A DNA stretch of 64,000 nt from Fomes fomentarius. Taxonomy: Eukaryota; Basidiomycota; Agaricomycetes; Polyporales; Polyporaceae. How positions within the stretch are numbered: position 1 is the stretch's first letter; the number at the start of each line of letters is the position of its first letter. Under the pieces are notes generated by a model. The model did not search any database and was not told the origin of the DNA. It worked only from the letters and a program-made list of their open reading frames with translations. Made by a program: the position numbers and the translations under genes. Location of the stretch: the NCBI GenBank assembly GCA_022606135.1, contig JABYQN010000008.1, positions 2,418,001-2,482,000 on the forward strand. The letters are read 5' to 3'. Positions 15,828 to 64,000 of the stretch are shown here, piece after piece.

Positions 15828-17857
15828 ATGGCTCTCTGCTCCTACTGCAAGGCTACCTATGACAAATCACCATCTCATCATCAGAGAGAGTGCCCTATGT
15901 TCACCTTCCCCATTCATCAATATCCACTAACGAAACAAGGTCCCACTACTGACGTGGAAAGGGATAAGGAAAATAGAATCATTTGTAGATGTGTAGATTC
16001 AGAGGGGACTGTGTGTGCTGGTACATTCAAAAACCAGAGAGTTCTTTGGGATCATCTTAAGAATTTTCCGACCCATACCTGGCTGGTGTGTCAGAATATT
16101 TTGATTGAATATCTGTTATCTAATCGGACCATTAGATCCCTCCATCAGCTACGGCACCTAACCCTTCAGAAGAGGAAGGGAATATTCCCGCTCAAGTAAG
16201 TGTCATATACATTTAATTCATTTATTTCTCCGCTGATATTCTGTGGCCTTTAGGAAGTACCCGGCTCTCCTATGCAGCAAGACCTCCACGTCTCCCGCTC
16301 CATGTTAAATGAGGCTGTCTCTCCCAGCCTTTCTGCTCAACTGGGCTCATCTCCCCGATCTCAGTCGTCCCATATGTCTGTAGATCCTGCTCCTTTCCAA
16401 CTAGATGAGCAGGTAGCGTCGGTCCCAGAGGTATGTGATATTTTACTATATATTGTATGGGCTCTGTTCTAATGATTATTCTAGCTGTATGACTTGGACG
16501 GAGAACCTCTTGCAGCGTGGGGTCTTCTGATCAATCGTCGTCTCAAGGCCTTTATTTGCCTTGCTTGTCAAGCTGTCGTTCTGCCCTCCCACATCCAAGG
16601 TCATCTCAGCCAGCAACACAAAGGGTTCAAAGCTCGTATCGACATGCAAGTGATTGACCAGGCTGTGGCTACAGAGGGCATTTGTGAAGACTGGCCAGCC
16701 ATCCCTGCTGCTATGCCTCTTCAATTCCAAGGTCTCTCCCTTCTTACTGGCTACGAGTGTCCGGTGTGCACTGTGATACACCCTGGCTTCAAGTCTCTCC
16801 AAAACCATGCTCGACAGTCTCATTCAGTCACCTTGCCATCCAACGGGCGCTACCAGATTTGTGATTGCCAGCAGCTCAGCAAGCACCCTGCAGCACGCTC
16901 ATGGTTTCCCGTCCACCGTTATGCCCCTCCGCCAGTCACTTCCTTCTCCCCCTATCTCTCAACACTGAGGGAACAGCTCGACATCCCTGCTGTTATTCCT
17001 TTCAGTGAGGTCGATCACCGGCAAGTCAATCCTTGGCAGGCCACCACTCGCTGGGGAGAATGGGTGGCGACCCAAGATCCTGCTCTCCTTATGCAGCTGG
17101 TCGAATATCCTAAGCCCAACAGCGACTTGGCTAATCTCGGTCCCATTGTCCAACGCTTCCTCAACCGAGTCTACAACTTCATCCCTGTCGCTGGCGAACT
17201 CTGCTGCCAGATTCTCAACACGGAGACGCCCACAAGGTACATATGTATAGACCATGTGCTTTATCGTGTGCTTACCATGTCACTAGCGATTACAACCACA
17301 CACCGTTCAACCAGCATCAAGTGCACGACTCATTCAAGGCTTACAGCCGTGTCGCTGTTCAACTTATCGCTTTCATCATTCGTGCCTCCTCCCATCCAAC
17401 CTACCGGTGTGGGTGGCATGAGGGCATCAGTGACCTGATGCAGGCTTTTGCAAATGACATTCAGGACGAGGACGTCAATGCCGCAGAGCCTGTTGACTTT
17501 GATGAGTATGTCAAGAACATTCTCCTTTCCTTGTGGACGGAGACATGGCCACTATCCCACGGCAACCCTTTCCCCGACCCCACCATCCGTTTCATCATTT
17601 ATAGGGAAAAGAATGCCCTGGGTCAGCTTAGGGTTACCTTCGGCTTAGATTTTCGCCCAAACAGGCCCGCTGACGAGGTCATTTCTCGTACCCGGCCTCT
17701 CTCATGCCCTTCTATCAGTGTCCATAGTAACAATCTACCCGCGCACGAGGTCCAATCTCGTGCCCGGGCTGACCTACATAATCCACCTACGAGGTCAGCC
17801 CTCGTGCCCGGGTTGATTCTCTCACACCTACGAGGTCAGCCCTCGTGCCCGGGTTGA
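15828..17857 (+). CDS. OrsD/DUF3505-like zinc-finger protein, probably C-terminally truncated
   Basis: Exons 15828-16085, 16136-16195, 16254-16430, 16485-17236 and 17287-17857 join in phase to 605 residues. An N-terminal finger (CSYCKATYDKSPSHHQREC) and a second (IICRC...CAGTF...WDHL) precede the main part. That part has GLLINRRLKAFICLACQAVV, SHIQGHLSQQHKG, then YECPVCTVIHPGFKSLQNHARQSH: the paired C-x2-C...H...H fingers typical of the OrsD family. A following segment (DEYVKNILLSLWTETWPL, PFPDPTIRFIIYREKNALG) resembles the linker that, in large basidiomycete proteins, leads to a RecQ-like helicase. Here the frame instead runs into the hairpin array and stops, so helicase parts are absent. OrsD function is unknown; DNA binding is an inference from the fingers. 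The family name is from memory, not a search. Confidence 0.65.
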
Positions 17858-18190
17858 TTCTCTCACCCCGCCTACGAGGTCAGTCCTTGTGCCCGGGGTG
17901 ACACTGTGATATACATCTCAGTCTGCCACTGTGACAGCACCCGTGGTGCTGGAACCCCGCCTACGAGGTCAGCCCTCGTGCCCGAGGTGACACTCCAATA
18001 TACATTGTCGTCAATCTGCCACTAATCATTGCACTTCATCTACCAGAATACCGTAGTTGACTTTCTCCACCCACCCACGAGGTCCAATCTCGTCCCCAGG
18101 CTGACCTACACAACCCACCTACGATGTCATCCCTCATGCCCGAGTTGACTTTCTTAACTAATCTACGAGGTCAGGACTCTTGCTCAGCGC
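17660..18190. repeat. Hairpin-forming tandem array, copy 1
   Basis: Units of about 40-75 bases share CTACGAGGTCAGCCCTCGTGCCCGGG or close variants. ACGAGG and CCTCGT are inverted repeats around TCAGC, so each unit can form a small hairpin. About nine units occur, the later ones more diverged. The 5' units still read in frame with the OrsD-type gene, giving its odd C-terminus. Confidence 0.85.
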
Positions 18191-18887
18191 AACCCATCAT
18201 GTATGCATGCCGCAGTTATATATAATGTCAGTCAGCACATACACTTGCTAATCATGTAGTAGTCCCAGTACTAGTAACTGGAGCTCACAGCCGTTTCGCT
18301 GCAGGTGGGCGCAGGTTAGACCCCCCCTATAATGCTATCAGCATTATCACCTTCTCAATACTACACTGCTTTCATGTTTATCCTGCCTGCACATCTATCT
18401 TGTTCTCTCCTATGCACATGTGTGCTGTCCGTAGTTGATCCACAGCGTGTACTTTGTTATACGACAGACAACCTCCTTTCGATGTCTGAGCGCATCCTCC
18501 CAATTGTTGTTGTACCTCCAAACAGCGCCTGCCTCATACTCGGGCCGATTTTGAAGTCACAGGACAATCGGCTCCATATTTTGCAGCCTATACACGTCAC
18601 TTACGTGTTATCTAGGCACACAGGCAGGTGCATGCATGCCCAGGCGCTAACTGGAAATTGATGGAAATCCGACCCATAATCTGACCGATGATCTGACCAA
18701 TTTGTTTATCTACACTGCCATCATGCCTGATTTGGCACACCATTGCCACACCCCCTGGCACATGTGCCACCTGAGTATAGGGTATTTCATGAGCGATTGC
18801 ATAAGATACCCACATCCACACATATTTTTGTGTATAATTTCCATTGCATTGACACTCAAGTGACAACCAACGCTCTACCAAAAAAAG
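18191..18887. other. Non-coding leader region of the large gene
   Basis: Between the hairpin array and the ATG at 18888. A TATATATAAT box at 18216 is far from the gene; a weaker GTATAATTT lies at 18832, 55 bases before the ATG, and is the better promoter candidate. No supported coding frame. Confidence 0.45.
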
Positions 18888-21800
18888 ATGTCATCAAACA
18901 CGAAGGTCAATAACAAGGTTTGTCCGCTGTGCTAGTCACATAGTTGCTCCTAAAAACCTTCTGCTCCAGTCTCACAAACCGCAACCACGCGCTGTATCCC
19001 GCAAGGTCAATCGTATCAATAGCCTTGTGCCATTTGATTGCATGTACTGAAATTTTGCTCCATTCCAACAGACTGAGCGAGTCGACAACACTGAGTCCCC
19101 AGTTGAGGGTAACCCCACAGCCAGAGCCGCTGATGCTGCCAACCAGGTCAGTCCCTCATACCCATTGGTATCCATGGCGGTTATGATGATTCATTCCACC
19201 CTCTCTGCTCGCAGGTCAAAGGCAAGAAGAAGAAGGAAACCAAGCCGGTTGAGGTTGCCAAGAATGTGCAGGATGTCCAGCAGACAGCTGACCAAGCTGT
19301 CCGCATGCGTGCAGCTCTTGAGAAGGCCACCCTTGGTTGGGCACGCATGAACACTGCCGATCCGCCGCGGAAGAATGTCAGCCTCCGTTTTGGATTCAAG
19401 AACCCACGCCCTGTCAGCATGCAGGCGGTCGACAACCTGCGCAAGTCATTCAAGCAAGGTGGCGGTCGTGACCCCAGCGTGGAGCCCCTCAATGTCCTCG
19501 TCAAGCCCAAATGGATCAACCCCTCAACTGTCGCCGGCACCCAAGCTGTTGCGTATGACAAACTGCCGCTTATCGAGTTCACTCAGGCTGCATCGGACCA
19601 GACCATCGATATCCTCTCTGGACAGCACCGCACCGTTGCAGCCCGGCAGGAACGCCAGGAAATGCTTGCCGAGGTTGAACGGCTCAAGGCCTCCCTTCAG
19701 AAGCTGCTGGACGGATCTGGTGGTGGTGAGCTTGCTACAGAGAGCCAGATTGAGGTCGACCGGCTTAAAGCCCACATCGCCAACCTGTCCAATGTCATCC
19801 AGGGGTACTGCATCTGGGCAGTCAGGTGCATCAATGCTGGTCCGTCCCACTGCCTAACCCTAAGTGTCTCCTGCTAACGTCACTTCAGAAACTGCCTCCG
19901 ACGAGCTTCTGGTCTATCTATCCTCCAACTTCTACCGCCCATCGTTCAGCCGCACACCCGAAGAAGGACTGCTGATGGCTATCGACTCCATCGAGAGCAT
20001 CCTCCCCACCATCAATGATCAACTCATCCAGCAGGATCCCTCCGTCAATTATGACCTCCAACCTGGCACACAACTTTGGGTCAAGGAGGTCCTCCCTCGG
20101 ATCTTCACCAACAATGAGACGCGGGATCTGGACTGGCCGATACTCCTCCAAAGTGCTCCTGCCTACCAGCTTGTGCGCCACATGAGACGGTCCCACTACT
20201 TTTCGAGTCGCTACATTATTCCTGTTCCCCTACTCCGTCGCGCACTTGCTGGTGCTAGCCGCAACAAGTCGACCATCCCCACAGTTGGCTATGTACGTTC
20301 ATATCTATTCCCTGGTGCTTTTCTCACCCCACATGCGTCCACAGTGGTGGGCTGATATTCTCAACCGCACTTTTGATGACATGGAGCTCATATCAAGCAG
20401 TGCCCCCTTTCCTCATCTGTGCGACCTTGATGTGATTCAACCAGAGTACACCGCGCCTGGTACACAGTGTCCTAAGGACGCCGTCGATGCATCCACTATC
20501 ACTGGCCCGGCCCTCTCACTTCTCAATGTCCTCCTCTCATCCCGCCAACAACCTCTTCTCATCAGCGACATGTGCCGTATGAACTGTGGGTTGGACTCGC
20601 CCATAACCACTGCCCGTGATTTCAGACAGGCACAACAGGCGCAGAGCGAGTTTGTTGCCCTCCAGTTTTCTCAAACTGTTGCCAGGCTCCGTACTGACGG
20701 AGTCACCATCTCTCACATATGGAGTGATGCCGTGATCAATGTCATCGAGGAAGCTTACAAGACGTATGTATCCCCGGCCATGGACGTCTATGGGCGCTTC
20801 ACAGATCCACGGTGGAAGGCCGCCATGGAACGCTACCGCAAGGCAGTCTTGACCCAGGCAGGACAGATTTGGCGAGCTCAGGGGGACCAGCTCATGTCGT
20901 CCCAAGACTCACCACCCTCCCCTGAGATCCTTGCCTTCTCTGGTGCCCGCCGGAAGCTTGCTTACCTCTTCCAACTCCGCGAGGTCGACTATGTTCTTGA
21001 CCTACCTCTTCTAAGCCCCACATACATTGAAGACTCGCTGAAGATGCTCGAGAAGTATACTCACACCATGCGCTGGGTCAGTGTCACGTCTCACATGCTG
21101 TCCCCCAAGTCCCCACTTATGACATGGCTTCCTGCAGCTTGCTCGCACCTTGGATCCCCTGTGCGAGCCATCACTGCACTCTGTTGCAGAAAAGCACAAG
21201 GTGTTTGATTACTCGTCGTATATCGTCGAGTGCCTCAAGAATACAGAATGCTTTCAAAGCCGCCCGGATGTTGCACTCGAGGTCAGTGTCTGTCAGAGAG
21301 GGCGAGATACATCACTTAAACCTATCCACCTGCAGTTTTGGCAGTGGTGCTTTGCACATGCACACTTGTTCTCCGATGTTGAGGTGCTTCTCACAGAGTA
21401 CACCACCGCAGAGATGAGCCAGTTCTGGAACATGACGTTCGCCCGCTGGGAGGCTGCTGTCAAAGCGTTCTCCACCTCGAAAGGGCTCAAACCGTTCGAT
21501 CCACACGAACCGAAGTTTCTCAAAGAACTGCCCGGGCCGGACTTCCAGGTCACAGAGGAGGAGCAAGGCTGGCTGATGGTCATGCGTGAATGGGCGGCGG
21601 TGGCCTTTTTCAACAAGCACAAGCTGTCGGACAAGGAGCTTCGCCAGTTGCACACGACGAAAGCTCTGCCGGGCGTGAAGAAGCTTGACTTGTGGTACGC
21701 GGTCAGCGACGTCGGGCTGCTGGACCAGGATCCGCTCCTCAAAGTACACCGGTTTGCTGCACCACCTCGTTTGAGGCAGTGTCCTCCTGCCCGCATGTTG

Positions 21801-23874
21801 TACCGCAACTTTGGCTGGAACTCACGCACCAGCAAGACTCGGCAGGTCACCGCTGATGCACACTGTATGCTCTGCTGCCTCGGGTTCCGCTATCATGTTG
21901 CGACCACTGGCCAACTTCTCCTGACCGAGGAAGGGCCCCAGCTTCGTGCGATGTTCCTCCAGTTTCTCTCTCGGTTCTGCCAACCGACCCTCGACAACTT
22001 CCTGGGCCCGGAGGATCAACGTTCTGCCGCTCTCAATGTTCAGTGGGTGAGCTGGGACGCCGAGTTATTGGATGACATCAAGGACCGTGCTCGCCAGCTC
22101 CCCCCACCCAGTAACCATGTGCTTGTTTCTGGTGTCAGTCTCAGCCCAGAAGCACGATTGGCAGCGCTGGAGCGGCAGCGCAAGTACGAGCCCGAGATTC
22201 AGCACATCATCGCTACTGTTGAAAAGGCCGTATCTGCTTCTGGTGCACCAGGTGAGTCGCGCCGTGTGCATGAACATGTACATCGCGCCCTGCAGGGTCT
22301 TGTTGGTGTACGTGCATCTGTTCTTCTCCTTGCATGTGGCATGTGATTGATGCAGAACTCCAGGCCCTGCTTGACAATGTCGACCGCATGGAGGAACGGC
22401 AGGCGGGATATCCTCGCTCTGCCCCCTTTGTTCCCACGAGCACTGGACGGTACGGCAGTGCCGTGCGGGTGTACATGCAAGAGCCCTACACCGATCCAGC
22501 GTGGTATGAGAGCATCGACGACTTTGCTGCCAGTGATCCTCATGCTTTCGAGGAATACCGCCAAGCGCTCGAGAAACAGTACCCCGGCACACCTATCGAC
22601 GACTTGATTGCCGACACATTGCACGTCCCCCAACAGGTTGCCCAATTTGCCACCCAGTGGCACGCAGATGAAGATCAAGATGAAGAAGAGTCTGATGCAC
22701 CAGTATCCCGGGCCATGGGCAAGACTCGAGCGCCCAATGCAGCCCTCTTTGAAAGGCAGCAGCTCTACCGCAGGCGCTTGACCGCACCGATCGCTGCATC
22801 CCATCTAACACAGGTCAGGCCAAGGCCACAGGGTGAGCCTGAGCAGGTGATGCCTGTCGCGGTCCAGGAGAAGCCAGTCCACAGACACCCTGCAGCCGTC
22901 CCTGCTCTTCCCCAAGCACGAAGATCTAGGGTACCCACCAGAGAGGATGACATGCAGGTGGACGACCCCGATCTCTCCCCTCTCCCTGAGCCCCGTGTTC
23001 CCTCTCCTTCATCAGACTCCAGCCAGGGGAGTTACACACTTCAGCGTTTGCACAAGCGCACCAAAGACGACATTGAGCAGGTAAGTGGGGTGCGCAATCT
23101 CACTTTGTATGCACACACTGATCATTCGTAGCTCTATGCCGCCAACAACGCGGAACCCCACCAGCAACTGGACAATCACGGCAGCCCCTCCTCCCCTGCA
23201 TCAGACTCAAGCATGCAGCAGAGGACTGTACGCCGTTTGCACAAGCGCACAGAAGACGAGGTTGAGCAGGTCAGTCAAGTGCCCAATCACACTCTTCGCG
23301 CCAATACTGATTCTCCGTAGCTGTATGCCACTCCCAACATTGAAGTGCACAAGGGCAAACAGAGAGCAGATCAGCCGTCCAAGATTCTTGTGCCCGACTC
23401 TTCGCCCGATACTCCGTCGATGCACCCACAGCCGGATGTGTTCCAAGTGTCCCACATCCCTGACCATTACCTTGACGACTTGCCAGACTTCATTCCGTCA
23501 ACATATCCAGATGAGCCCTCACTGGGTGCAGCTGTCAAGCCGCCTCCGGCTGGCCCATCTCAGTCGCTCCAAAGTAAGTCATGCTACCTTTGCCCAATGC
23601 ACAGGCAACTTATTTGTTTTCGACCCCTGTGGACACAGGCTCATCAACTGCCTCCAAGCGGCCCCGATCAGACACACTTTTGTCTACACGCCCCGATGGA
23701 CACCCTGATGCAGATGGGTCAGGGCCCCCTCCATTGAAGCGGCCCCACCAGCCCCCACTCCCATTGAAGCCCTTGCTCGACAAGCATCAGGCGCAACTCG
23801 ACAAGCAGCAGGCGCAACCTCGCAAGCTGACTGCAAGAATGAAAGGAGCACAGCCGCCAGGTGCTCCGTTGTGA
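18888..23874 (+). CDS. Large protein (1425 aa) with ParB/sulfiredoxin-like segment
   Basis: Twelve exons, hand-checked for phase: 18888-18917, 19072-19146, 19215-19839, 19889-20292, 20345-21076, 21138-21281, 21336-22251, 22356-23080, 23132-23269, 23321-23573, 23639-23874. That is eleven listed pieces and ten introns, total 1425 codons. A Lys-rich start (KGKKKKETK) is a likely nuclear signal. Residues about 90-190 read VDNLRKSFKQGGG...EPLNVLVKP...IDILSGQHRTVAARQ, the order seen in ParB-N/sulfiredoxin folds (helix, strand with P-[L/I]-x-V, then G-[Q/H]-[H/R]-R-x-x-A). A short coiled coil follows. The middle has no motif I know. The tail is acidic and Pro-rich with two repeated exons ending RLHKRT[K/E]D[D/E][I/V]EQ and a basic SKRPRSD patch. 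The ParB-like assignment is inference; partner or catalysis unknown. Confidence 0.75.
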
Positions 23875-46359: not shown

Positions 46360-48256
46360 ATGGCGCGCACTAAGCAAACTGCTCAACGTAGCACAGGCCA
46401 GGCTGCTCCCAGGGCAGCACTTACTGGTAAGGCGTTGTCTGGGACGCGCCGCACTTATTGACAGGCCGCTGCTACACTAGGCACAATTCACCGAGTCAGT
46501 CATGCCGAGGACGAAGCCATAATAGACGCATTGACCCACTCCTCGGATGACGAACGTCTGTCGAGCTCCAAACGCAAGCGCGTTAGACGTTCCACACGCA
46601 TTCGGGGCAAGGAAGACAGTAAGTCCCAGTTTTGCAGTCATCAAACTCACGCACCGACATGTCACAGCGGACGCGCAAGTAACCACGCACACGCAACTCC
46701 CGGCAGCAGGGGCACCTCAAGAGACATCCTCCACCGATATCGGACAGACCTCTGACACGGTTAGGCGCACAGTCTCAGACATCTAACCGCACGCTGATAC
46801 CACGCCACAGTTCTGCTACTTATGTACGAACGGGGGGGATGTGATCGCATGCGACGACTGCCCGCGAGTCCTGTGTATGTCCCATGTGCCTCGGGTCAAA
46901 GACATCCCCGAAAACGAGCTCGCACAGTTGGTGTTTGTATGTCCTTCCTGCCACAATCGGGCGCAGATGCGAGATCAGCCGCACCCATACTACGTGAGTT
47001 CGATGCCGTGGTACTCCATGTGACATGCCTGATTGACATTCGACAGGGCCTGTACCGTGTGGTTAACGGACAGCGCGAGCCCTTCCTGCCGGAATTCCTG
47101 GCAGTGCACGCAGTTGGCCGTCGTCCCAGAGACGCGAGGGTGGACACGTCCCCAGTTGTCATCGTGAACCTGCACTTGGCTTCGCTAGCAGACGCTGGTT
47201 CCCCAGCACAAGTCGTGCATGCCACTTTGATGGCTTACTTCTTACGCGACGCAGCCTCGCTGCTGCATTATATTGATGCACCTTACAACCTCCGCTCGAA
47301 TGCCGAAGCAGCTGCCCACCGGAATGGCCTCGACACCGCTCTGCGAGTGCTGGACAGGTCAGTCCTTGTAACAATACTCATTCGATATGAGTTCATGTCA
47401 CCTCCAGGTTTGAACGTGCGCGAGTCTTGTTCTTTGTGTACACGCACTCCGAAGAGTCCACTGGAGACCTGTTCTACGCTCAAGGCCAGGCATCTCTCGA
47501 CCTAAATCAGGTGTGTACGCGGTGTGAGCGCACCGCAATATCATGGCACTGACCTCCCACAGTGGTGGGATGACGTTATATCCCCCGGTCTTCAGCAATG
47601 TGGCAAGCGGCATGAGCTGACAGTTGCCTTGTTGTCGTGCGGCGCGCTCATGGACAACCCCGCCAACTTCTCGATTATCAAGAAGCGCGCTGAACTGTCA
47701 GTCGTCTGTCTCATCTCAAATAATGTCAGGCCTCTTACGATTCTCTAGGATGTCTGCCACCCGGCTGTTCGCCTTCGGTGCGACCGCTGTTCAAGCCGCT
47801 CTCACGGTGCCCTTCTTCATCAATTTTGTGCACCGCGTCTACATTGAGGCGGGCAAGATCGACATCCATCACATCGGAGAACTGTTAACATCGTCTGTCT
47901 ATCTGGGTCGACACACTCCTGTTGTGGTGCTCGCCCCCGATCCGCGCATGGGCGCTGGACTCATTGCACAACGCTACATATGGACTCATCCCACTTTGAA
48001 GCCTTTTGGATCCGAGTTGCCGCTTCAGTGCCCGAAGTGTGGCACAGTCTCGGCCTTGAAGTCAACTCAGGGAAACGCTGGCGTCATTCTCGTCACTTGT
48101 ACCTATCGTGGTCCGAGGAGCAAGAGCGTCGAAGGGACAGGTACCGCCGGCCGGAAGGTGGCATGTGACTACAAGATGGAGCACCGTCTCCCGGAGCAAG
48201 CCACTTTCATCAAGGGCGGCGAACGAGGCCAGTGGGTGGCCCAGCCTATTCATTAG
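46360..48256 (+). CDS. Histone H3-tail-mimic protein with PHD finger
   Basis: Exons 46360-46426, 46481-46618, 46668-46759, 46811-46993, 47047-47357, 47408-47510, 47563-47696 and 47749-48256 close in phase to 511 residues. After the initiator Met the protein starts ARTKQTA, then Q-R, STG, Q-A, APR, A-A, L: 14 of the first 20 positions equal the histone H3 tail. K4, S10 and T11 are kept, while K9, K14 and K18 are Arg or Ala. Next are an acidic stretch (SSDDERLSSS) and a nuclear signal (KRKRVRRSTRIRGK). Residues 101-146 form a PHD-type finger: C101/C104, GGDVIACDDCPR with C113/C116, C121, H124, C143/C146. Fifth and sixth ligands are C and H instead of the usual H and C. The GGD...CDDCPR core resembles PHD fingers that read unmodified H3K4. 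The C-terminal half matches the gene at 34684, including a CPKC pair. Intramolecular tail-finger binding or decoying of H3 enzymes is inference. Confidence 0.85.
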
Positions 48257-58569: not shown

Positions 58570-59290
58570 TTCTCTCACCCCGCCTACGAGGTCAGTCCTC
58601 GTGCCCGGGGTGACACTGTGATATACATCTCAGTCTGCTACTATGAGAGCACCCGTGGTGCTGGAACCCCGCCTACGAGGTCAGCCCTCGTGCCCGGGTT
58701 GATTCTCTCACCCCGCCTACGAGGTCAGTCCTCGTGCCCGGGGTGACACTGTGATATACATCTCAGTCTGCTACTATGAGAGCACCCGTGGTGCTGGAAC
58801 CCCGCCTACGAGGTCAGTCCTTGTGCCCGGGTTGATTCTCTCACACCTACGAGGTCAGCCCTCGTGCCCGGGTTGATTCTCTCACCCCGCCTACGAGGTC
58901 AGTCCTCGTGCCCGGGGTGACACTGTGATATACATCTCAGTCTGCTACTATGAGAGCACCCGTGGTGCTGGAACCCCGCCTACGAGGTCAGTCCTCGTGC
59001 CCGGGGTGACACTGTGATATACATCTCAGTCTGCTACTATGAGAGCACCTGTGGTGCTGGAACCCCGCCTACGAGGTCAGCCCTCGTGCCCGAGGTGACA
59101 CTCCAATATACATTGTCGTCAATCTGCCACTAATCACTGCACTTCATCTACCAGAATACCGTAGTTGAATTTCTCCACCCACCCACGAGGTCCAATCTCG
59201 TCCCCAGGCTGACCTACACAACCCACCTACGATGTCATCCCTCATGCCCGAGTTGACTTTCTTAACTAATCTACGAGGTCAGGACTCTTG
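58382..59290. repeat. Hairpin-forming tandem array, expanded copy
   Basis: Same units as at 17660. The gain comes from repeats of a longer composite: TGACACTGTGATATACATCT, CAGTCTGCTACTATGAGAGC, ACCCGTGGTGCTGGAACCCC, then the CTACGAGGTCAG hairpin, which occurs four times here and about once in copy 1. Confidence 0.9.
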
Positions 59291-59995
59291 CTCAGCGCAA
59301 CCCATCATGTATGCATGCCGCAGTTATATATAATGTCAGTCAGCACATACACTTGCTAATCACGTAGTAGTCCCAGTACTAGTAACTGGAGCTCACAGCC
59401 GTTTCGCTGCAGGTGGGCGCAGGTTAGACCCCCCCTATAATGCTATCAGCATTATCACCTTCTCAATACTACACTGCTTTCATGTTTATCCTGCCTGCAC
59501 ATCTATCTTGTTCTCTCCTATGCACATGTGTGCTGTCCATAGTTGATCCACAGCGTGTACTTTGTTATACGACAGACAACCTCCTTTCGATGTCTGAGCG
59601 CATCCTCCCAATTGTTGTTGTACCTCCAAACAGCGCCTGCCTCATACTCGGGCCGATTTTGAAGTCACAGGACAATCGGCTCCATATTTTGCAGCCTATA
59701 CACGTCACTTAGGTGTTATCTAGGCACACAGGCAGGTGCATGCATGCCCAGGCGCTAACCGGAAATTGATGGAAATCCGACCCATAATCTGACCGACGAT
59801 CTGACCAATTTGTTTATCTACACTGCCATCATGCCTGATTTGGCACACCATTGCCACACCCCCTGGCACATGTGCCACCTGGGTATAGGGTATTTCATGA
59901 GCGATTGCATAAGATACCCACATCCACACATATTTTTGTGTATAATTTCCATTGCATTGACACTCAAGTGACAACCAACGCTCTACCAAAAAAAG

Positions 59996-62900
59996 ATGTC
60001 ATCAAACACGAAGGTCAATAACAAGGTTTGTCCGCTGCGCTAGTCACATAGTTGCTCCTAAAAACCTTCTGCTCCAGTCTCACAAACCGCAACCACGCGC
60101 TGTATCCCGCAAGGTCAATCGTATCAATAGCCTTGTGCCATTTGATTGCATGTACTGAAATTTTGCTCCATTCCAACAGACTGAGCGAGTCGACAACACT
60201 GAGTCCCCAGTTGAGGGTAACCCCACAGCCAGAGCCGCTGATGCTGCCAACCAGGTCAGTCCCTCATACCCATTGGTATCCATGGCGGTTATGATGATTC
60301 ATTCCACCCTCTCTGCTCGCAGGTCAAAGGCAAGAAGAAGAAGGAAACCAAGCCGGTTGAGGTTGCCAAGAATGTGCAGGATGTCCAGCAGACAGCTGAC
60401 CAAGCTGTCCGCATGCGTGCAGCTCTTGAGAAGGCCACCCTTGGTTGGGCACGCATGAACACTGCCGATCCGCCGCGGAAGAATGTCAGCCTCCGTTTTG
60501 GATTCAAGAACCCACGCCCTGTCAGCATGCAGGCGGTCGACAACCTGCGCAAGTCATTCAAGCAAGGTGGCGGTCGTGACCCCAGCGTGGAGCCCCTCAA
60601 TGTCCTCGTCAAGCCCAAATGGATCAACCCCTCAACTGTCGCCGGCACCCAAGCTGTTGCGTATGACAAACTGCCGCTTATCGAGTTCACTCAGGCTGCA
60701 TCGGACCAGACCATCGATATCCTCTCTGGACAGCACCGCACCGTTGCAGCCCGGCAGGAACGCCAGGAAATGCTTGCCGAGGTTGAACGGCTCAAGGCCT
60801 CCCTTCAGAAGCTGCTGGACGGATCTGGTGGTGGTGAGCTTGCTACAGAGAGCCAGATTGAGGTCGACCGGCTTAAAGCCCACATCGCCAACCTGTCCAA
60901 TGTCATCCAGGGGTACTGCATCTGGGCAGTCAGGTGCATCAATGCTGGTCCGTCCCACTGCCTAACCCTAAGTGTCTCCTGCTAACGTCACTTCAGAAAC
61001 TGCCTCCGACGAGCTTCTGGTCTATCTATCCTCCAACTTCTACCGCCCATCGTTCAGCCGCACACCCGAAGAAGGACTGCTGATGGCTATCGACTCCATC
61101 GAGAGCATCCTCCCCACCATCAATGATCAACTCATCCAGCAGGATCCCTCCGTCAATTATGACCTCCAACCTGGCACACAACTTTGGGTCAAGGAGGTCC
61201 TCCCTCGGATCTTCACCAACAATGAGACGCGGGATCTGGACTGGCCGATACTCCTCCAAAGTGCTCCTGCCTACCAGCTTGTGCGCCACATGAGACGGTC
61301 CCACTACTTTTCGAGTCGCTACATTATTCCTGTTCCCCTACTCCGTCGCGCACTTGCTGGTGCTAGCCGCAACAAGTCGACCATCCCCACAGTTGGCTAT
61401 GTACGTTCATATCTATTCCCTGGTGCTTTTCTCACCCCACATGCGTCCACAGTGGTGGGCTGATATTCTCAACCGCACTTTTGATGACATGGAGCTCATA
61501 TCAAGCAGTGCCCCCTTTCCTCATCTGTGCGACCTTGATGTGATTCAACCAGAGTACACCGCGCCTGGTACACAGTGTCCTAAGGACGCCGTCGATGCAT
61601 CCACTATCACTGGCCCGGCCCTCTCACTTCTCAATGTCCTCCTCTCATCCCGCCAACAACCTCTTCTCATCAGCGACATGTGCCGTATGAACTGTGGGTT
61701 GGACTCGCCCATAACCACTGCCCGTGATTTCAGACAGGCGCAACAGGCGCAGAGCGAGTTTGTTGCCCTCCAGTTTTCTCAAACTGTTGCCAGGCTCCGT
61801 ACTGACGGAGTCACCATCTCTCACATATGGAGTGATGCCGTGATCAATGTCATTGAGGAAGCTTACAAGACGTATGTATCCCCGGCCATGGACGTCTATG
61901 GGCGCTTCACAGATCCACGGTGGAAGGCCGCCATGGAACGCTACCGCAAGGCAGTCTTGACCCAGGCAGGACAGATTTGGCGAGCTCAGGGGGACCAGCT
62001 CATGTCGTCCCAAGACTCACCACCCTCCCCTGAGATCCTTGCCTTCTCTGGTGCCCGCCGGAAGCTTGCTTACCTCTTCCAACTCCGCGAGGTCGACTAT
62101 GTTCTTGACCTACCTCTTCTAAGCCCCACATACATTGAAGACTCGCTGAAGATGCTCGAGAAGTATACTCACACCATGCGCTGGGTCAGTGTCACGTCTC
62201 ACATGCTGTCCCCCAAGTCCCCACTTATGACATGGCTTCCTGCAGCTTGCTCGCACCTTGGATCCCCTGTGCGAGCCATCACTGCACTCTGTTGCAGAAA
62301 AGCACAAGGTGTTTGATTACTCGTCGTATATCGTCGAGTGCCTCAAGAATACAGAATGCTTTCAAAGCCGCCCGGATGTTGCACTCGAGGTCAGTGTCTG
62401 TCAGAGAGGGCGAGATACATCACTTAAACCTATCCACCTGCAGTTTTGGCAGTGGTGCTTTGCACATGCACACTTGTTCTCCGATGTTGAGGTGCTTCTC
62501 ACAGAGTACACCACCGCAGAGATGAGCCAGTTCTGGAACATGACGTTCGCCCGCTGGGAGGCTGCTGTCAAAGCGTTCTCCACCTCGAAAGGGCTCAAAC
62601 CGTTCGATCCACACGAACCGAAGTTTCTCAAAGAACTGCCCGGGCCGGACTTCCAGGTCACAGAGGAGGAGCAAGGCTGGCTGATGGTCATGCGTGAATG
62701 GGCGGCGGTGGCCTTTTTCAACAAGCACAAGCTGTCGGACAAGGAGCTTCGCCAGTTGCACACGACGAAAGCTCTGCCGGGCGTGAAGAAGCTTGACTTG
62801 TGGTACGCGGTCAGCGACGTCGGGCTGCTGGACCAGGATCCGCTCCTCAAAGTACACCGGTTTGCTGCACCACCTCGTTTGAGGCAGTGTCCTCCTGCCC

Positions 62901-64000
62901 GCATGTTGTACCGCAACTTTGGCTGGAACTCACGCACCAGCAAGACTCGGCAGGTCACCGCTGATGCACACTGTATGCTCTGCTGCCTCGGGTTCCGCTA
63001 TCATGTTGCGACCACTGGCCAACTTCTCCTGACCGAGGAAGGGCCCCAGCTTCGTGCGATGTTCCTCCAGTTTCTCTCTCGGTTCTGCCAACCGACCCTC
63101 GACAACTTCCTGGGCCCGGAGGATCAACGTTCTGCCGCTCTCAATGTTCAGTGGGTGAGCTGGGACGCCGAGTTATTGGATGACATCAAGGACCGTGCTC
63201 GCCAGCTCCCCCCACCCAGTAACCATGTGCTTGTTTCTGGTGTCAGTCTCAGCCCAGAAGCACGATTGGCAGCGCTGGAGCGGCAGCGCAAGTACGAGCC
63301 CGAGATTCAGCACATCATCGCTACTGTTGAAAAGGCCGTATCTGCTTCTGGTGCACCAGGTGAGTCGCGCCGTGTGCATGAACATGTACATCGCGCCCTG
63401 CAGGGTCTTGTTGGTGTACGTGCATCTGTTCTTCTCCTTGCATGTGGCATGTGATTGATGCAGAACTCCAGGCCCTGCTTGACAATGTCGACCGCATGGA
63501 GGAACGGCAGGCGGGATATCCTCGCTCTGCCCCCTTTGTTCCCACGAGCACTGGACGGTACGGCAGTGCCGTGCGGGTGTACATGCAAGAGCCCTACACC
63601 GATCCAGCGTGGTATGAGAGCATCGACGACTTTGCTGCCAGTGATCCTCATGCTTTCGAGGAATACCGCCAAGCGCTCGAGAAACAGTACCCCGGCACAC
63701 CTATCGACGACTTGATTGCCGACACATTGCACGTCCCCCAACAGGTTGCCCAATTTGCCACCCAGTGGCACGCAGATGAAGATCAAGATGAAGAAGAGTC
63801 TGATGCACCAGTATCCCGGGCCATGGGCAAGACTCGAGCGCCCAATGCAGCCCTCTTTGAAAGGCAGCAGCTCTACCGCAGGCGCTTGACCGCACCGATC
63901 GCTGCATCCCATCTAACACAGGTCAGGCCAAGGCCACAGGGTGAGCCTGAGCAGGTGATGCCTGTCGCGGTCCAGGAGAAGCCAGTCCACAGACACCCTG
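59996..64000 (+). CDS. Second copy of the large ParB-like-segment protein, partial
   Basis: Every exon of the gene at 18888 recurs at +41,108 with the same splice sites, up to the window edge inside the exon that corresponds to 22356-23080. Differences seen inside exons are few and silent or mild (61739 region, 61852). No stop or frameshift, so both copies look equally intact. The 3' end is outside the window. Confidence 0.8.

Follow-up and report, generated by a model that had tools for sequence, protein, structure and literature searches.

A mushroom protein family with a histone H3-like N-terminal tail, a PHD-type finger and a predicted caspase-like core

The DNA analyzed here, referred to as the window, is a stretch of 64,000 nucleotides from Fomes fomentarius (GenBank assembly GCA_022606135.1, 40.9 Mb in 24 contigs; contig JABYQN010000008.1, positions 2,418,001 to 2,482,000 of the forward strand), and it contains a gene whose product begins with a sequence resembling the tail of histone H3. 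The gene starts with an ATG at 46360 and has eight exons, which code for 511 amino acids and close with a stop codon at 48254-48256. The seven introns are all of the GT-AG type and 49-54 bp long, and the exons join in phase, with the tail encoded by exon 1 alone, as an earlier reading of the letters and open frames only (the sequence-only reading) had stated. An in-frame stop codon is located upstream of 46360, with no in-frame ATG in between, and the gene model is backed by homology, as the homolog P0001 is 43% identical to the window protein across 99% of its length. The features are as follows:

46360-46426, + strand: exon 1, 67 bases; residues 1-22 (MARTKQTAQRSTGQAAPRAALT) plus the first base of codon 23; normal GT donor at 46427
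46363-46422, + strand: H3-like tail, residues 2-21 (ARTKQTAQRSTGQAAPRAAL), within exon 1
46481-46618, + strand: exon 2, basic, with KRKRVRR (resembling a nuclear localization signal, by eye) at residues 53-59, 46570-46590
46668-46759, + strand: exon 3, linker of low conservation
46811-46993, + strand: exon 4, PHD-type finger at residues 100-146, 46811-46951
47047-47357, + strand: exon 5, start of the predicted caspase/CHAT-like core (about residues 190-410, by homology to modelled proteins)
47408-47510, + strand: exon 6, motif YTHSEESTGDLF; candidate catalytic His277 at 47445-47447
47563-47696, + strand: exon 7, motif LLSCGAL; candidate catalytic Cys324 at 47638-47640
47749-48256, + strand: exon 8, end of the core and C-terminal zinc-ribbon-like module, CPKC from 48029

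The zinc-ribbon-like module (48029 onward) contains a recurrent WTHPTxxPxG...LQCPxCG motif and gave Pfam matches below the cut-off only. The protein may be called nuclear-looking on the ground of the KRKRVRR stretch, which was read by eye.

Residues 2-21 of the window protein are identical to H3 residues 1-20 at 14 of 20 positions, with the departures R8 to Q, K9 to R, G13 to Q, K14 to A, K18 to A and Q19 to A, while K4 is kept. The probability of a random match at 14 or more of the 20 positions is about 4e-13 at one N-terminus and about 6e-9 over an assumed 15,000 genes. No Pfam histone match was obtained in the window protein up to an E-value of 1, and the locus is absent among the 18 matches to PF00125 listed across the genome (one of which, on contig 2, may be a further H3-type gene), such that this is a non-histone protein whose N-terminus resembles that of H3 more closely than chance would allow. 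The comparison bears out the sequence-only reading, which had reported an ARTKQTA start, the H3 spacing, the 14 identical positions, and Arg or Ala in place of K9, K14 and K18 (R, A and A, respectively). Its interpretation of the protein as a non-histone mimic of the H3 tail with K4 retained also stands, but the finger and the modelled caspase-like core had been missed.

DNA with the exact MARTKQT coding capacity occurs four times in the genome, in three genuine H3 genes and in the tail-bearing gene. For the 15 residues that are shared (Met included), only 4-5 codons are equal to those of the three H3 genes. At the nucleotide level, 33-34 of 63 positions match, as compared to 52-58 of 63 among the H3 genes themselves. 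The tail exon has thus not been copied recently from an H3 exon. The first exon of the H3 genes reaches approximately codon 31-32 (by eye), versus codon 22 in the tail-bearing gene. No second copy of this gene was found in the genome with the window protein, P0010 or P0006 as query. A weak match (L013, E 0.014) was discarded, as it looked on visual inspection like an ordinary gene with a PHD, and a further weak match (L014) was listed at E 0.463.

In total, 13 homologs were identified, six in a search with the window protein and seven in an alignment search, which did not list P0004 and P0006 from the first search again. Both searches scored only the approximately 8,000 candidates that shared most words, and 13 is thus a lower bound. 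Three chromodomain helicases (P0014-P0016), in which 12-16% of the query was covered, were dropped before counting. The homologs are from Earliella scabrosa (six), Ganoderma sinense, G. leucocontextum, Dichomitus squalens, Polyporus arcularius, Suillus lakei, S. variegatus and Pleurotus djamor, which represent the Polyporales, Boletales and Agaricales (lineage looked up for three species), all within the Agaricomycetes. All 13 are named "hypothetical protein" at NCBI, with no Pfam domain tabulated. P0005 from G. sinense carries the UniRef label peptidase S53 domain; its residues from about 610 to 705 extend past the ribbon, in keeping with this label, and it is likely a fused gene model.

A recognizable tail, with at least 10 of 20 positions identical to H3, is present in 12 of the 13 homologs. 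It is located at residue 1 in 11 of these proteins and starts at residue 52 of the annotated model in P0012, while P0002 has no tail. The identity to H3 is 13-16 of 20 positions, except in P0008 (10 of 20). The latter, from E. scabrosa, has a degenerate tail (MAGTQQTARRSCGEQAAHIAL) in which both R2 and K4 are lost, and keeps the full finger and the His/Cys pair. Counted over 13 tails (the window protein and 12 homologs), the H3 residue is kept at A1 in 13, R2 in 12, T3 in 13, K4 in 12, Q5 in 12, T6 in 11 and A7 in 12; at R8 in 9, K9 in 3, S10 in 12, T11 in 11, G12 in 13, G13 in 3 and K14 in 1; and at A15 in 13, P16 in 10, R17 in 10, K18 in 1, Q19 in none and L20 in 13. By these counts, the conserved set is A1-A7, S10-T11-G12, A15-P16-R17 and L20. 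Since K9, K14 and K18 vary freely, the conserved function would need none of these acetylation and methylation sites.

The mean pairwise identity (55 pairs from 11 sequences, the window protein and ten homologs, with P0002, P0011 and P0012 left out) is 0.69 for the tail, 0.18 for the linker, 0.38 for the finger, 0.37 for the core and 0.25 for the C-terminal part. Of the five parts, the tail thus shows the highest conservation, even though the adjoining linker is unconserved. When a profile of the 13 homologs was compared to PDB, histone H3 chains were matched with E-values from 1.7e-9, in alignments that begin where the tail begins (among the best 60 of 158 matches). Because the tail is retained in relatives from three mushroom orders, mimicry of the histone seems to be an inherent trait of the family. 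A survey for unrelated H3-tail proteins with residues 1-40 of P0010 was uninformative: only seven candidates were scored, and the search did not return P0007 and P0009, although their first 13 residues are those of the query. In viral contigs, 37 stretches fit the N-terminal pattern, of which none was confirmed.

The finger in exon 4 has eight ligands in the order C-C-C-C-C-H-C-C. A profile built from nine aligned members (the window protein and eight homologs) is related in sequence to PHDs, which were its best matches in PDB, led by CHD4, TRIM66, TRIM24, BHC80/PHF21A and TRIM33, with KAP1 and AIRE lower (E 1.2e-7 to 6.2e-3); BHC80, AIRE or TRIM33 were also among the Foldseek matches. Pfam PF00628 matched exon 4 with E 4.5e-4 and 20.6 bits, which is under the 24-bit cut-off, and was detected in seven of the nine members, but was missed when the whole window protein was scanned. 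The ligands are all present in the order C4-C-H-C2 rather than the canonical C4HC3, and we therefore refer to the finger as PHD-type. It differs from the PHDs of the CHD4, TRIM, BHC80 and AIRE proteins in having C and then H as the fifth and sixth zinc ligands, in its score below the Pfam cut-off, and in sharing a chain with its putative ligand. Most of the profile-matched PHDs read the unmodified H3 N-terminus, with the exception of KAP1. An acidic residue two positions before the first Cys is a feature of BHC80 and AIRE, readers of unmethylated H3K4 (H3K4me0); D or E is found there in three of the ten members with the site, and the window protein has a Thr at this position and an Asp at -3. 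The full ligand set is present in 8 of the 13 homologs and is incomplete, as annotated, in P0002, P0004, P0006, P0012 and P0013.

The fold of the core was taken from AlphaFold2 models of P0001 and P0009, which were compared to known structures by Foldseek. These predicted models have a caspase-like fold, with SAVED-CHAT (8tl0), other CHAT proteases, caspases and MALT1 as the best matches, and they share with these the placement of a His and a Cys after successive strands. The two residues are conserved in all 11 aligned sequences, at a spacing of 47 in the window protein and 44-58 in the homologs in which both were located by script. The family members are probably cysteine proteases, as judged from the models. 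No match to caspases or CHAT proteins was obtained by sequence in Pfam or PDB, for which reason we term the family only caspase-like and do not file it as a member of clan CD. Unlike SAVED-CHAT, the other CHAT proteases, caspases and MALT1, to which it has no detectable sequence relation, the family has no other Pfam-known domain and carries the H3 tail and the PHD-type finger instead. In the models, residues 1-11 (P0001) and 1-15 (P0009) of the tail have a predicted local distance difference test score (pLDDT) below 50. The means for the blocks 11-20 and 21-30 are 51-64, and single bridge residues are assigned at positions 18 and 22 in both models, a hint that another part of the chain may be in contact with the APRxxL half of the tail. 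A weak Cmr5 match from PADLOC (one of nine members, E 0.017) was taken as chance.

The tail-bearing gene is flanked by a direct repeat of 5,028 bp (17865-22892 and 58973-64000), the copies of which are 99.68% identical and located about 41 kb apart, the second extending to the end of the window. This repeat is possibly a recently moved transposable element; three of its open frames had no Pfam match. The Pfam scan covered 20 of the long stop-to-stop open frames of the window rather than gene models. The ten frames near the tail-bearing gene gave no match at 0.01, and the other ten yielded DUF5774 (E 0.0062) and, at 16485-17435, an OrsD domain (PF12013, E 2.4e-9). Because the scans gave only these two domains, we propose no partner gene.

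The individual elements have counterparts in known systems. The PHD of UHRF1 binds the H3-like N-terminus of the non-histone protein PAF15 in the manner of H3 (PMC7060239, PMC11187062); PAF15 starts with VRT and its reader is a separate protein, whereas the likeness to H3 reaches residue 20 in the window protein, whose finger shares a chain with a modelled caspase-like core. DPPA3 likewise occupies the H3 site of the UHRF1 PHD and competes with H3 (PMC11187062), but through an internal VRT motif and apparently without a protease. In Pseudocercospora, also a fungus, H3-like sequences outside the histone genes have been captured by hAT elements (PMC6710886); those copies are damaged by repeat-induced point mutation, as opposed to the conserved tail on an intact gene described here.

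We tentatively favor, as a possible reading that falls somewhat short of being probable, that the tail docks on the finger of its own protein and holds or assembles the protease, which would make this a caspase-like protease controlled by a built-in ligand-reader pair. Removal of the initiator Met would expose an A-R-T-K end, to which pockets specific for unmodified H3 could bind, and the same polypeptide would supply a finger of the H3-reader class about 80 residues downstream of the tail. The docking could take place within one chain, or it could connect separate chains and contribute to their assembly. Real H3 tails, or modification or clipping of the mimic at R2, T3 or K4, could break or shift it, with altered activity as a result. 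With the H3-tail copy and its reader in one chain, competition by or modification of H3 tails might then switch the caspase-like activity, such that the protein would by itself sense the state of histones and translate it into proteolysis or cell death; we regard this extension as doubtful. A ligand-reader pair that gates a protease would fit the architecture better than the decoy for H3K4 readers and writers suggested by the sequence-only reading.

The main evidence against a tail that obligately pairs with its own finger is that four of the five homologs with an incomplete finger keep the tail, although some of these models may be mis-spliced. This observation, together with a conservation that extends to L20, while a pocket that reads ARTK should need less, favors a tail that acts outward, binding other H3 readers or H3-tail enzymes (Set1/COMPASS, LSD1-type, Haspin-like or PHD proteins), and thereby brings the protein to the chromatin machinery or competes with H3, as proposed previously, while the finger has a separate job. 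This explanation, with which the basic stretch in exon 2 would also agree, stays strong because the tail persists in members that lack a complete finger. It leaves unexplained why the finger closest to readers of the H3 N-terminus resides in the same chain, and it has no known partner; we consider it unlikely on the whole, but a serious possibility. It is rather improbable that the tail is a bait, or integrated decoy, for H3-tail-modifying or H3-tail-cleaving enzymes of parasites, viruses or selfish elements, with modification triggering a caspase-like death response. In favor of this, SAVED-CHAT, to which the modelled fold is closest, provides immunity through a proteolytic cascade (PMC11229360). 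The family can expand, as indicated by the six homologs from Earliella alone, and R2, T3, K4 and S10 are kept while K9, K14 and K18 are lost. Against this, there is no known attacker, only one copy was found in the genome, the ten neighboring open frames have no Pfam domain, and a role in defense or death would be conjectural.

That the tail lacks a selected function is far less credible. Recent capture of the 5-prime exon of an H3 gene would explain why exon 1 alone encodes it, and transposon capture of H3 has been described in Dothideomycete fungi (PMC6710886). However, the low codon and nucleotide matching to the H3 genes and the different end of their first exon argue against capture, and the tail is retained in homologs that are only 28-44% identical to the window protein (five of the six from the direct search). 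On these sequence comparisons, recent capture is largely refuted by the conservation, as is the suggestion that exon 1 might be an unconserved H3 fragment, and we consider it very improbable. The least probable explanation is that the tail is an artefact of the gene model or a chance resemblance: the start context is weak, with a C at -3 (by eye), but the public models of 11 of the 13 homologs begin at the same tail, and the random probability at one N-terminus is minute.

No description of a family combining the tail, the finger and the core was found in the titles and abstract beginnings of the open-access literature, with few subscription papers covered. Each of the three components has known counterparts, namely short mimics of H3, PHD readers and CHAT proteases; their union, and a conserved 20-residue mimic in a cellular family, were not found there. 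Discussions of histone mimicry usually concern a few residues, in viral proteins or in single proteins of the host. Here, a cellular family with members from three fungal orders joins an H3 mimic that spans residues 1-20 with a finger of the H3-reader type and a modelled caspase-like core. The family offers a natural test of which H3 residues are recognized together, with A1-A7, G12, A15 and L20 kept while K9, K14 and K18 are free, and it may also serve as a test of whether the chromatin state directly gates a protease in fungi.
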